DNA of 64,000 bases from Holophagales bacterium (GTDB lineage Bacteria; Acidobacteriota; Thermoanaerobaculia; Multivoradales; Multivoraceae), in the NCBI GenBank assembly GCA_009845425.1, contig VXZQ01000014.1, positions 395,783 through 459,782 of the forward strand, in the 5' to 3' direction. Position numbers and translations under genes: made by a program. Every line of letters begins with the position of its first letter. Position 1 is the stretch's first letter. Under the pieces are notes generated by a model, which saw only the letters and a list, made by a program, of their open reading frames with translations, made no database searches and had not been told where the DNA came from. This document shows positions 4,073-29,871 of this stretch, piece after piece.

Positions 4073-5833
4073 GTGGAGAGAACGCAGGCAGGAACCCTGA
4101 CCGCCGAACAGGTCGGCCGGCAGACAAAGGTCCAGGGCTGGGTCCATCGCCGCCGCGATCACGGCGGCGTCATCTTCCTCGACGTCCGCGATCGGAGCGG
4201 CGTCGTTCAGGCGGTCGTTCATCCTGAAACCACGCCGGAGGCGGCCGAGGCTCTCCAGCCCGCGCGCCTGGAGTGGGTCGTCGAGGTCGAGGGCGAGGTG
4301 GTCCGCCGGGATCCCGACAAGGTGAACCCGAAGATGGCCACCGGCGAGATCGAGATCCAGGTCGCGAGCGGTCGCGTGCTGGGCCGCTCGGAGCCGATGC
4401 CGTTCGGCGTGGAGGGCGCGCAGGACGCCAGTGAGGAGACCAGGCTCAAGTACCGCTTCCTCGACCTCCGCCGGAACGCGCTGCAGAGCAACCTGCGGCT
4501 GCGCTCCGACTTCACGATCGAGTCTCTCGCCTACTTCCGCGAGCAGGGGTTCGTGAATGTCGAGACGCCGATGCTCACCCGCTCGACGCCGGAAGGCGCC
4601 CGCGACTATCTCGTGCCGAGCCGCCTGAACCACGGCAGCTTCTACGCGCTGCCGCAGTCGCCCCAGTTGTTCAAGCAGATCCTGATGGTCAGCGGACTCG
4701 AGCGCTACGTCCAGTTCGCCCGCTGTTTCCGCGACGAGGACCTGCGCGCCGATCGCCAGCCCGAGTTCACGCAGATCGATGTGGAGATGTCCTTCGTCGA
4801 CGAAGAGGACGTGTACCGCCTGGTCGAGGGGCTGTTCGCCCGGGTCTTCCCGCTGGCCGGAATCGAGCCTCCCGCGTCGTACCCGCGCCTCTCCTACGAC
4901 GACGCGGTACTCCGCTACGGTAACGATCGTCCCGATCTGCGGGTCGATCTCGAGATCGAGGACGTGACGGACTGCCTGCGCGAGACGGGGTTTCGAGCCT
5001 TCCAGGCCGCGATCGCTTCGGGCGGCGTCGTGCGTGGAGTCCACATTCCGGGAGCCGCTTCCTCCAGCCGTCGCCAGGTCGACGAGTACGCCGACATCGC
5101 GCGCCGCCACGGCGCCGCGGGTGTCCTCTGGGTCAAGCGGGACGGCGGCGTCCCCTCGTTCCTGGTCAAGGGCGCGCTGACGGACGGGCAGGTCGAAACC
5201 CTGGCCGATCGTCTCGGTGTGGAGGAAGGCGGTCTGGGCCTGCTGGTCGCCGGACCCGCGCCGACGGCGGCGGCGGCGCTCGGCGCCCTGCGGGTCGAGG
5301 TCGGACGGCGCTTCGGGCACATGCGGGAGGACGCGCACGAGTTCCTTTGGGTCCACGACTTCCCGCTAGTGACCTGGAACGGCGACGAAGGACGATGGAA
5401 CGCGACGCACCATCCGTTCACCTCGCCGCGAATGGAGCACCTCGACCGGTTGGAGAGCGACCCGGGATCGGTTCTCTCGCGTGCCTACGACGTGGTGCTG
5501 AACGGCAACGAGATCGGCGGCGGTTCCATCCGGATCCATGACCGGGACGTCCAGAAGCGCGTGCTGGCCGTGCTCGGGATCGACGCCGCGGAGGCCGAGC
5601 GTCGCTTCGGCTTCCTGTTCGAGGCCCTGAGCTACGGCGCGCCGCCTCACGGCGGGATCGCCCTCGGCGTCGACCGGATCGTCATGCTGATGGCCGGCGC
5701 CGCCTCGTTGCGCGACGTGATCGCCTTTCCGAAGACGGCCTCGGCCGTGTGTTTGATGACGGAGGCGCCGTCGACGGTGGACCAGGAACAGTTGCTGGAA
5801 CTCGGGCTGCGCGTTCGCCCGCGCGGCGGCTAG
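4073..5833 (+). CDS. aspS: Aspartyl-tRNA synthetase (bacterial type)
   Basis: Class II synthetase charging tRNA-Asp (or Asp and Asn in non-discriminating forms; the sequence alone does not decide). An N-terminal OB-fold (VQGWVHRRRDHGGVIFLDVRD) is followed by the class II core with motif 2 (FRDEDLRADRQPEFTQIDVE), the bacterial GAD insertion domain (about residues 290-400), and motif 3 (GGIALGVDRIVMLM). The open frame extends upstream to GTG 3986, but the extra 29 residues are Arg-rich and unlike AspRS. GTG 4073 gives a 586-residue protein of normal size beginning VERTQAG, so I chose it. It lies 89 bp after hisS. The C-terminal end shows the usual catalytic-domain tail. Confidence 0.95.
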   Translation: MERTQAGTLTAEQVGRQTKVQGWVHRRRDHGGVIFLDVRDRSGVVQAVVHPETTPEAAEALQPARLEWVVEVEGEVVRRDPDKVNPKMATGEIEIQVASGRVLGRSEPMPFGVEGAQDASEETRLKYRFLDLRRNALQSNLRLRSDFTIESLAYFREQGFVNVETPMLTRSTPEGARDYLVPSRLNHGSFYALPQSPQLFKQILMVSGLERYVQFARCFRDEDLRADRQPEFTQIDVEMSFVDEEDVYRLVEGLFARVFPLAGIEPPASYPRLSYDDAVLRYGNDRPDLRVDLEIEDVTDCLRETGFRAFQAAIASGGVVRGVHIPGAASSSRRQVDEYADIARRHGAAGVLWVKRDGGVPSFLVKGALTDGQVETLADRLGVEEGGLGLLVAGPAPTAAAALGALRVEVGRRFGHMREDAHEFLWVHDFPLVTWNGDEGRWNATHHPFTSPRMEHLDRLESDPGSVLSRAYDVVLNGNEIGGGSIRIHDRDVQKRVLAVLGIDAAEAERRFGFLFEALSYGAPPHGGIALGVDRIVMLMAGAASLRDVIAFPKTASAVCLMTEAPSTVDQEQLLELGLRVRPRGG

Positions 5834-21302: not shown

Positions 21303-21857
21303 ATGAACGTCAAACCCACTGGATTCCGCGTCGCGGCGTCGACCGCCGCCATCATCGCCGGTGTCCTCATGGCCGGGGGGCCGGTCCTGGCCCAGAGCAA
21401 GATCGCCGTCGTCGAGGTCGAACGCCTGCTGCAAGAGTCGGCGCGCGGCCAGATCGCGGTTCAGGAGCTCACACGACTCCGGGACGAGAAGCAGGCGGAG
21501 CTCACCACCAGGCAGGAGCAATTGGCCGCGCTGCAGAAGCAGTACAACGACGGCAGGCTGACGCTGGCGGAGGACCGCCTGGCCGAACTCGAGAAGCAGC
21601 TCGAGGACATGACGATCGACCTGCGCCGCGCCCAGGACGACGCGAACCGCGAAATGCAGAAGGTGCAGGGGGAGAGGTTCGGCGAGATCGAACAGGCGGT
21701 GCTGCCGATCATCTCCCAGGTCGGCCGGGAGTTCGGTTACACGGCGATCTTCAACAAGTTCCAGGGCGGCCTGCTGTTCGCGGCCGACGCCGCGGACATC
21801 ACGAACCTCATCATCGAGCGCTACAACGCGGCGTACCCGGCGACTCCCGCGGAGTAG
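21303..21857 (+). CDS. OmpH/Skp-family periplasmic chaperone
   Basis: A small exported chaperone that holds unfolded outer-membrane proteins for BamA. The 184-residue precursor has a Sec signal peptide (about 1-29, ending VLAQS) and a conserved first strand KIAVVEVERLLQES. A long charged helical hairpin follows (about 48-125; REEQL-like heptads such as ARLAELEKQLEDM), then a C-terminal strand/helix with YTAIFNKFQGGLLFA. The length and tentacle-like helix content match Skp/OmpH. It lies 22 nt after bamA with a GGAG Shine-Dalgarno. It is the last gene before the palindromic element and the divergent propeller gene. Confidence 0.9.
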   Translation: MNVKPTGFRVAASTAAIIAGVLMAGGPVLAQSKIAVVEVERLLQESARGQIAVQELTRLRDEKQAELTTRQEQLAALQKQYNDGRLTLAEDRLAELEKQLEDMTIDLRRAQDDANREMQKVQGERFGEIEQAVLPIISQVGREFGYTAIFNKFQGGLLFAADAADITNLIIERYNAAYPATPAE

Positions 21858-21954
21858 CGCGGCAACTGTCGGTGCGCGGGCCCTCTGGCCCGCTGCCGCC
21901 GCAGGCGGCCACGGAGCGCGTCGGCCGTCAGGCCGACTCCTTGCCGTTGCCGCG
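21858..21954. repeat. Cloverleaf-like palindromic element between convergent genes
   Basis: The whole 97-nt gap between the ompH stop and the convergent PQQ gene folds on paper into a cloverleaf. A perfect 9-bp outer stem is CGCGGCAAC (21858-21866) with GTTGCCGCG (21946-21954). Inside are three perfect hairpins: GCGGGCC/GGCCCGC (21876-21882, 21887-21893), GCCGCC/GGCGGC (21895-21900, 21904-21909) and GTCGGCC/GGCCGAC (21920-21926, 21931-21937). There is no long T-tract, so this is not a textbook terminator. It could be a bidirectional terminator, a REP/BIME-like dispersed repeat or a structured RNA; a genome-wide copy count would separate these. Confidence 0.7.
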
Positions 21955-23340
21955 TTACTCCGGGTTACGGATGCTGTAGAGCTTCGACCGGGTGCGAATC
22001 AGCAGCCGGTCGCCAGCGACCGCCGGTGACGCCATCGCCATCTCGTCGAGGCTGTTCGTGTGGAGTACCTCGTACTCCGAGCCGGCGCGGATCACGTAGG
22101 TATCGCCCTGCTCGCTCAGCGCGAACACGCGGTCGTTGTAGGCCCAGGGAGATGAGGTGAAGCTGGCGCCGCCGCGGGGCGCTACGCGCTTCCGGCCGTA
22201 CACCGGTTCGCCGGTCAGCGCGTCGTACGCCTCGAAGAAGCCGCGGTCCAGCAGGCTGTAGTAGACGCCCTTGTAGACCAGCGGCGACGTGTTGTAGTTG
22301 CCGGCCTTGGGCTGGTGCCAGGCGACGAACTCGCTCTCCGTCGCGTCCCCTTCCAGGGTGATGTCGCCGAGCGCGCCCGGACGGATGGCGAAGACCGGCC
22401 GGCGCTGGTCCTGGAAGTAGCCGGAGTTGACGTAGACCATGTCGTGAGCCGCGAACGGCGTGGCGATGGCCGCCCAGGACATGCGGCCGTCCATCTCCCA
22501 CAGCAGTTGACCGTCCAGGTCGTACGAGCGGATCCGGTTCTTGCCGCTGGTGACGATCTCGGTGCGGGCTTCGTTCGGCCAGACGAACGGCGTCGCCCAG
22601 CTCGACACCTCTTCCCGGGCGGTGCGCCAGCGCTGTTCGCCGGTGTGCTTGTCGAGGGCGGCGATCCAGGACTCCTCCTCGTTGTCGTAGAGGATGATCA
22701 GCAGATCGTCGTGCAACACAGGCGAGGAGGCGGAGCCGTAGTCCCACATGGTCGAGCGGTAGGGCGTATCGAAGCTCCACACGGACTCGCCCTCCGTCGT
22801 GAAGGCGTACACGCCGAGGTCGCCGAAGCGCGCGTAGACGCGTTCGCCGTCGGTGGTCGGGGTCTCCGAGGCGTAGGTCTGCTTCTGGTGGCGCGGGAAC
22901 TCGGGTACACCGGCCTTGACCGAGCGCTCCCACAACACCTCGCCCGTGGCGAGATCCAGGCAGTACACGCGCCAGTCGTGCCGCGCCTGCGGCGGTTCAC
23001 TGCGCCCGCGGGCGGCGTAGAGACCGGCCTGAGGGCGTTCGAACTCGCCTTCTGAAACCGCGGTCGTCAGGAACACTCGATTGTCCCAGACGATCGGGCT
23101 GGACCAGCCGAGCCCGGGGATCTCGGCGATCCACTCGACATTCTCCGTCTGGTTCCACCGATCCGGCAGGGCGGGATTGTCGGATACGGCCGGGTTCATG
23201 CCGGGGCCACGGAACTGGGGCCAGTTGTCGGACGCGGCAGCCGTGCCGGCGCAGAGCGCGGCGCAAGCGAAGGCGGTGAGGATGGCGGCGCCACTGGGCC
23301 TGTGGTGGAAACGGTGCGGTTGTGATGTCACGTTGCTCAT
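21955..23340 (-). CDS. Secreted PQQ-like beta-propeller repeat protein
   Basis: A 461-residue exported protein of the outer-membrane-assembly/PQQ-like propeller superfamily. It has an N-terminal signal peptide (hydrophobic stretch about 18-36, ending GTAAAS) followed at once by the family tag DNWPQFRGPG. Propeller blades repeat the pattern A/LDxxTGExxW (CLDLATGEVLWER, ALDKHTGEQRWR, AYDALTGEPVYG). The C-terminal blade ends in LLIRTRSKLYSIRNP. No catalytic PQQ-dehydrogenase residues can be assigned, so a binding or scaffold role is as likely as an enzyme. It is divergent from lpxD and convergent with ompH, splitting the envelope operon. A related gene lies at 56339. Confidence 0.85.
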   Translation of the reverse strand: MSNVTSQPHRFHHRPSGAAILTAFACAALCAGTAAASDNWPQFRGPGMNPAVSDNPALPDRWNQTENVEWIAEIPGLGWSSPIVWDNRVFLTTAVSEGEFERPQAGLYAARGRSEPPQARHDWRVYCLDLATGEVLWERSVKAGVPEFPRHQKQTYASETPTTDGERVYARFGDLGVYAFTTEGESVWSFDTPYRSTMWDYGSASSPVLHDDLLIILYDNEEESWIAALDKHTGEQRWRTAREEVSSWATPFVWPNEARTEIVTSGKNRIRSYDLDGQLLWEMDGRMSWAAIATPFAAHDMVYVNSGYFQDQRRPVFAIRPGALGDITLEGDATESEFVAWHQPKAGNYNTSPLVYKGVYYSLLDRGFFEAYDALTGEPVYGRKRVAPRGGASFTSSPWAYNDRVFALSEQGDTYVIRAGSEYEVLHTNSLDEMAMASPAVAGDRLLIRTRSKLYSIRNPE

Positions 23341-29794: not shown

Positions 29795-29871
29795 GCGCCC
29801 GTAGCTCAGCAGGATAGAGCGGCGGATTCCTAATCCGCAGGTCGGGGGTTCGAGTCCCTCCGGGCGCACCA
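29795..29871 (+). tRNA. tRNA-Arg (anticodon CCT)
   Basis: A complete 77-nt cloverleaf. The acceptor stem GCGCCCG/CGGGCGC is perfect, the D-stem is GCTC/GAGC, the anticodon stem GCGGA/TCCGC has loop TTCCTAA, and the T-arm is GGGGG-TTCGAGT-CCCTC with one G-T pair. CCA is encoded. Anticodon CCT reads AGG, arginine. It sits between apt and the convergent tatA gene, with 21 nt to tatA. Confidence 0.97.

Follow-up and report, generated by a model that had tools for sequence, protein, structure and literature searches.

REP/RAYT systems are known mainly from Proteobacteria, in which the repeats carry a GTAG tag. In Escherichia coli and Pseudomonas, these repeats (REPs, BIMEs or REPINs) are short, palindromic and extragenic, are present in dozens of copies as both singlets and inverted doublets, and co-diverge with a single copy-flanked Y1 HUH transposase, the RAYT (TnpA-REP). 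The account in PMC6006769 places a GT[AG]G tetranucleotide beside the hairpin of known REPs, and gives a search rule that required a GTAG or GTGG tag 0–2 nt from the hairpin foot; an alternative ‘clover’ fold is mentioned for REPINs (PMC3116915). RAYT-like genes have also been described in Acidobacteria (Koribacter, Terriglobus and others), as the TIRYT/TIRtron elements, which are flanked by non-GTAG repeats, some of them forming repeat families (PMC3733652). Repeats lacking GT[AG]G are likewise described for TnpAY1 subclass 2.6 and class 3, the latter occurring in Acidobacteria at high copy numbers (PMC6006769).

Here we describe an element of Acidobacteriota that shares the above features of the E. 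coli and Pseudomonas systems, but whose foot is GGTRC (CTGGGTRC), with no GT[AG]G tetranucleotide, and whose unit comprises three hairpins in a row rather than one. It lies in a 64-kb stretch of DNA (hereafter, the window) from a Holophagales bacterium (GCA_009845425.1, contig VXZQ01000014.1; genome G000). Because this is a multi-copy repeat found throughout the genus, because the genome encodes a RAYT flanked by copies, and because the site is filled in a scattered manner among relatives, we conclude with high confidence that the element is a REP, the non-autonomous mobile repeat of a REP/RAYT system whose partner is the genome's single RAYT.

The system resembles the TIRYTs in its RAYT-like gene, its acidobacterial host and its flanking non-GTAG repeats; the TIRYTs are set apart by their description in PMC3733652, which gives them long terminal inverted repeats, some with GGGGWSAS, in contrast to hairpin REPs with a CTGGG[AT]NC foot. 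As characterized in PMC6006769, TnpAY1 class 3 combines a Y----Q motif with a foot of the form CnGA (Y..NP and GGTRC here), subclass 2.6 is mostly from Bacteroidetes and has an atypical, weaker structure, and subclass 2.7, which looks nearest by motif (NHVH, YIRQNP, about 212 aa), has repeats that carry GT[AG]G. The Pseudomonas putida REPs (TGTGGGAGCGGGC..GCCCGC), as reported in PMC2817692, are similar in their G+C-rich perfect stem and in the make-up of their foot (GTGGGAGC, compared with CTGGG[AT]NC), although GTGG is present there, whereas the first base of that tetranucleotide is C here.

The element occupies an intergenic gap of exactly 97 nt (21858–21954) between two convergent genes, presumed to be Skp/OmpH-like and PQQ-repeat-like, the former lying downstream of a presumed BamA-like gene (Table 1). 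The initial annotation had described a 9-bp outer stem enclosing perfect hairpins of 7, 6 and 7 bp, far more structure than a normal terminator; the stem and the three hairpins are confirmed. In a scan of the window, this was the only place with three perfect hairpins of at least 6 bp within 97 nt. No intrinsic terminator (a G+C hairpin followed by a T run) was found between 21700 and 22100.

Table 1. Features at the convergent junction (window positions).
Feature	Position	Strand	Remarks
Presumed Skp/OmpH-like gene, 184 aa	21303–21857	+	TAG stop at 21857; downstream of BamA-like gene
Outer stem, left arm	21858–21866		CGCGGCAAC; extended arm 21850–21866 includes TAG stop of Skp-like gene
Probable REP unit	21868–21942	+	Matched over its full length by covariance model R1 (79.1 bits, E 6.5e-15)
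Foot GGTGC	21871–21875	+	Abuts hairpin 1 on its 5′ side; complete head CTGTCGGTGC; occupies the place of GT[AG]G in known REPs
Hairpin 1	21876–21893	+	Perfect 7 bp, loop CTCT; paired in 100% of copies, with double-sided changes at 4/7 pairs
Hairpin 2	21895–21909	+	Perfect 6 bp, loop GCA; nearly invariant, but most of it fixed by the copy-selecting pattern
Hairpin 3	21920–21937	+	Perfect 7 bp, loop GTCA; 5/7 pairs changed on both sides, but pairing demanded in copy selection
Outer stem, right arm	21946–21954		GTTGCCGCG; extended arm 21946–21962 includes stop codon of PQQ-repeat-like gene
Presumed PQQ-repeat-like protein gene	21955–23340	−	Convergent neighbor; stop at 21955

The region is very G+C-rich (GC 0.8), as would suit the outcome that the initial annotation had named as refuting its proposal, namely chance structure in such DNA. 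The probability of this explanation is negligible. The segment 21848–21964 has a folding z-score of −5.73 as DNA and −5.80 as RNA, with none of 200 shuffles equally stable in either case; mononucleotide shuffling of the 97 nt produced three hairpins in 4 of 20,000 trials and the outer stem in 1 of 20,000; and a BLAST search with the 97 nt found at least 41 matches in the same genome (the best 40 of 197 candidates being scored). It is these copies that refute chance.

The search for copies was extended with a covariance model (R1) built from 61 copies (alignment A2; 13 of 74 selected copies were left out). R1 has at least 64 matches in the genome at E<1e-5, and at least 115 at E≤0.01 (best 150 of 14,098 candidates scored). 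The window contains no second match with E below 0.1, so that its copy is a singlet. Among 60 relatives, all 21 genomes of the genus were matched, with 16 to at least 81 matches each; outside the genus, R1 matched none of the 3 genomes that represent other genera of the family, and just one of the 36 from elsewhere in the order, which had a single marginal match. Weak BLAST matches in 7 of these 36 were not confirmed by R1, whose marginal match was in a different genome. The element is thus a dispersed, multi-copy, genus-restricted repeat.

In the 61-copy alignment, pairing holds in 99.6% of pair cells, and both partners have changed in 9 of 20 pairs. Copies were selected by requiring hairpin 3 to pair, and with a pattern that left little of hairpin 2 free, so that the clean evidence for conserved structure is the compensatory change in hairpin 1 (Table 1), whose pairing was not demanded.

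Copies are mostly extragenic. Of 64 copies, with inverted doublets counted twice, a home-made gene caller places 52 in the spaces between genes, 11 inside ORFs and 1 at the edge of a contig, whereas 1834 of 2120 positions drawn at random fall in ORFs. The 81 matches at E≤0.001 include nine inverted doublets (partners on opposite strands and no more than 150 bp apart) like those of BIMEs and REPINs; contigs C3, C7 and C10 hold 51 of the 81. Two copies from different species (L037, G000:C12:50000–50260, and L046, G002:C30) have the same left flank and so probably represent one site; the L037 copy has lost its third hairpin.

The outer stem requires separate treatment. The initial annotation was correct that a perfect 9-bp stem (21858–21866 with 21946–21954) lies at the gap edges, but its ends are not the gap boundaries: pairing continues across both stop codons (21850–21866 with 21946–21962), with 16 of 17 pairs Watson-Crick and the remaining one G-T. 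Nor does this stem belong to the repeat. The subtype of the element found in genome G006 has further copies in 21 genomes, all of the genus, and most among the matches listed start at 7–12 and end at 85–90 of its 99 positions; since they match inside the stem only, the stem is outside the mobile unit. When 75 copies are considered together with their flanks, a strong outer stem is seen in just 7, mismatched flanks giving an expectation of 0.9. A permutation test for such a stem is positive on average, with none of 5000 permutations reaching the observed mean, yet the result is carried by these seven copies, and we rejected the stem as a general part of the element. As the arms are common to the other filled sites at this junction and absent from the mobile unit, they belong to the gene junction, where short gaps are often palindromic themselves (e.g., CACGGAGTAG-CGCTACTCCGTG in G001 and G016). 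The reading that best suits the cloverleaf is therefore that two gene ends make a small palindrome and that the window copy, a three-hairpin REP, sits in what would be its loop. The 10-mer GGAACTGGCC is found 66 times in the genome (18 for its reversed control), and makes the outer stem in a few copies from several genomes; empty GGAACTGGCC palindromes, considered as a prior target, were found in none of 21 genomes (exact pattern, 2–32 nt gap).

The orthologous junction can be followed across the genus. The Skp/OmpH-like gene has orthologs in all 21 genomes, with the same convergent neighbor in each, and the junction is filled in six (G000, G006, G007, G010, G011 and G012); of the 15 without the element, all but G019 show only a short gap, and the 250 nt found there in G019 look unrelated. 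The element had been placed at the point where a bam-lpx operon is split; the junction being unchanged without it, the element did not split these genes. Filled tips are scattered over the site tree and have unfilled sisters (G000/G005, G007/G014, G011/G013). Two distant members of the genus, G006 (L240, G006:C15:139165–139263) and G007 (L242, G007:C182:18957–19056), have the same element at this junction (94% identity over 99 nt), but in G007 it is reverse-complemented relative to G006 within unchanged outer arms; this reversal could reflect an in-place flip between the inverted arms or two insertions. At this junction the element is either mobile or, at a minimum, present in some lineages and gone from others, gain and loss fitting alike. 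As the outer arms are common to filled sites in deep clades, the pattern suggests either a site that was filled long ago and has since been emptied repeatedly, or one that is preferred and has been filled on more than one occasion.

These deep-clade arms, together with a position between convergent stop codons that are both spanned by the outer stem, would also fit a site-specific structured RNA or DNA element, such as a 3′ UTR structure or bidirectional transcription barrier, conserved at the junction for a function of its own. The distribution of copies bears on this as well: among the 52 extragenic copies, 25 lie at tandem, 21 at convergent and 6 at divergent junctions, compared with 7 convergent among 53 junctions in the window. 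However, 85 of 273 random non-coding positions in the copies' loci are already convergent, so that the preference is only modest. Fifteen genomes of the genus do without the element here, copies are scattered over the genome, and no U-run terminator is present; Rfam, at the gathering threshold, matched only a tRNA at 29795 in the window and not the element. We consider a junction-specific function unlikely, and the separate structured-RNA role that was suggested initially finds no support here.

The initial annotation's suggestion of a mobile REP-like element is supported by both of the searches that it called for, the one for copies in the genome (above) and the one for a RAYT, which yielded a single gene. 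The genome has one match to the Y1_Tnp family (G000:C10:4986–5207; 34.4 bits, cut-off 23), in a protein of 212 aa that also passes the NCBIfam model NF047646 (REP_Tyr_transpos) with 81.4 bits against a cut-off of 80, a margin of 1.4 bits. The HUH and Y..NP motifs are kept, and H126, H128, Y184 and N188 are invariant in 15 sequences. For a relative with 89% identity (L140), the predicted fold (pLDDT 84.5) has as its first match 4er8, the E. coli RAYT bound to a REP hairpin (Z 16.5, rmsd 2.2, 137 residues aligned), followed by IS608 (Z 12.2). A PDB search by sequence was weak, returning the ISDra2 transposase alone (E about 0.009), so that identity was settled by fold; the IS200-like gene of this genome is a RAYT according to NCBIfam, and according to the predicted fold in the case of its relative.

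The shared fold of RAYTs and IS200 transposases (IS608 chains, Z 11–12), and their common use of hairpins, raise the question of whether the repeats might instead be a MITE of some other transposase, or the termini of an ordinary insertion sequence of the IS200/IS605 type. We disfavor this as very improbable: the NCBIfam IS200 model scores 21.5 bits, below its cut-off of 55, the best structural match is to a RAYT, and a search for the Y1 family finds one transposase in the genome as against dozens of repeats.

Repeats and RAYT are physically linked. The RAYT lies on another contig than the window, between two copies of the repeat (C10:4760–4836 and 5594–5667), and inverted doublets are also present at this locus. 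A close RAYT was found in 12 of the 21 genomes, and all 13 RAYT loci in these 12 have a GGTRC-footed hairpin within 450 bp. In the other 9 genomes, no RAYT was found at E≤1e-10, but 16 to at least 81 repeats are present, including 28 in the single-contig genome G019; this argues against a simple one-to-one link, and points to gene loss or missing assembly. The four lowest repeat counts (16–34) are those of G019, G020, G015 and G012, all without a detected RAYT, giving only a hint that low counts accompany RAYT absence; elsewhere counts reach at least 81.

The abundance of repeats in these nine genomes would also fit an old repeat family kept by gene conversion or replication slippage, with no transposition and the RAYT a bystander, and the reversed G007 element could, in this case, be due to an in-place flip within the same arms. 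Weighing against it are the linkage at 13 of 13 genus loci, the presence of different repeats beside the RAYTs of another family of the order, and a foot type that tracks RAYT descent: on a RAYT tree of 60 loci, foot type changes 19 times, compared with a mean of 36.7 and a minimum of 32 in 300 shuffles, a low number to which close relatives in the tree contribute. A bystander RAYT thus appears improbable, about as much so as a junction-specific function.

Taken as a REP/RAYT system, the proposed mobile unit of about 75–85 bp would consist of the short foot (GGTGC) and the three hairpins. By analogy with E. coli, the RAYT may bind hairpin and foot in single-stranded DNA, cut at the foot, and then transfer the unit, or a copy of it, to further extragenic locations, a mode of action drawn from the work on E. 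coli and on Marinomonas/Stenotrophomonas (PMC8266576). We infer both that this RAYT moves the repeats and the manner in which it does so.

In the genus repeats, the foot reads either GGTGC or GGTAC and usually forms part of CTGGGTGC or GTCGGTGC. GTAG or GTGG at 0–2 nt from the hairpin foot is absent from all 61 heads in A2, the copies of which were picked by a GGTRCG pattern. Hairpins beside genus RAYTs that were picked without a foot rule have GGTRC in 45 of 152 cases and GTRG in 7 of 152; both strands were read, so that about half is the highest fraction to expect.

Similar feet are present beside related RAYTs. The 80 closest RAYT loci in named genomes come first from MAGs of Acidobacteria, Thermoanaerobaculia and Holophagales, the rest from Chloroflexi, Verrucomicrobia, Planctomycetes, Bacteroidales, Proteobacteria and Armatimonadetes; 5 of the 80 had no ORF by the motif used, and 15 of the remaining 75 had no GGNNC foot, leaving the 60 loci of the above tree. 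At the 75 loci, 164 of the 515 hairpins at distances up to 400 bp have a GGNNC foot, as do 22 of the 159 that lie more than 800 bp away; with a wider cut, GGNNC accounts for 201 of 634 hairpins and GTRG for 13 of 634. In 80 distinct GGNNC stems, positions −8 to −6 are C (54), T (46) and G (52), position −3 is A or T in 76, and the stem starts with GC in most (77 G, 77 C). The repeats are therefore of a REP type whose foot is CTGGG[AT]NC rather than GT[AG]G, and feet of this kind accompany related RAYTs in several phyla.

It may be, with chances that we judge about even, that one RAYT lineage spanning Acidobacteria, Verrucomicrobia, Planctomycetes, Bacteroidetes, Chloroflexi, Armatimonadetes and Proteobacteria uses REPs with this foot, that its foot recognition has been rewired, and that the three-hairpin unit of the present genus is its most elaborate form. 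Of the 75 RAYTs, 27 have Met, 12 have Ala and 6 have Gln as the residue after a conserved Trp, with 21 unmatched by the Trp pattern; by position, rather than by alignment, this residue would correspond to Q95 of the E. coli protein. A replacement of the Gln that follows Trp in GTAG-type RAYTs, mostly by Met or Ala, could underlie the rewiring, a proposal that we hold with the same evenly divided confidence. Among the sources accessible to us, we found no earlier report of a CTGGG[AT]NC foot, and Bertels et al. (2017) may describe one.

If such a class exists, descriptors demanding GTAG or GTGG will miss it, and a foot that is tied to its transposase and changes with it would provide natural material on how RAYTs choose their cutting site. 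For annotation of Acidobacteriota, palindromes between convergent genes can be mobile repeats rather than terminators.

Two genomes from another family of the order encode RAYTs that are 41–44% identical to that of the present genome over most of its length, beside palindromes that differ from the genus repeats and have the foot GGAAC. RAYT loci of another family of the order lie inside palindrome arrays, with a spacing of about 173 bp at L077 (G032) and 115 bp at L076 (G024). At L071:1501–2091 (G014), a RAYT with Gly after its HUH motif (HVHG) is adjoined by a row of nearly identical palindrome units.
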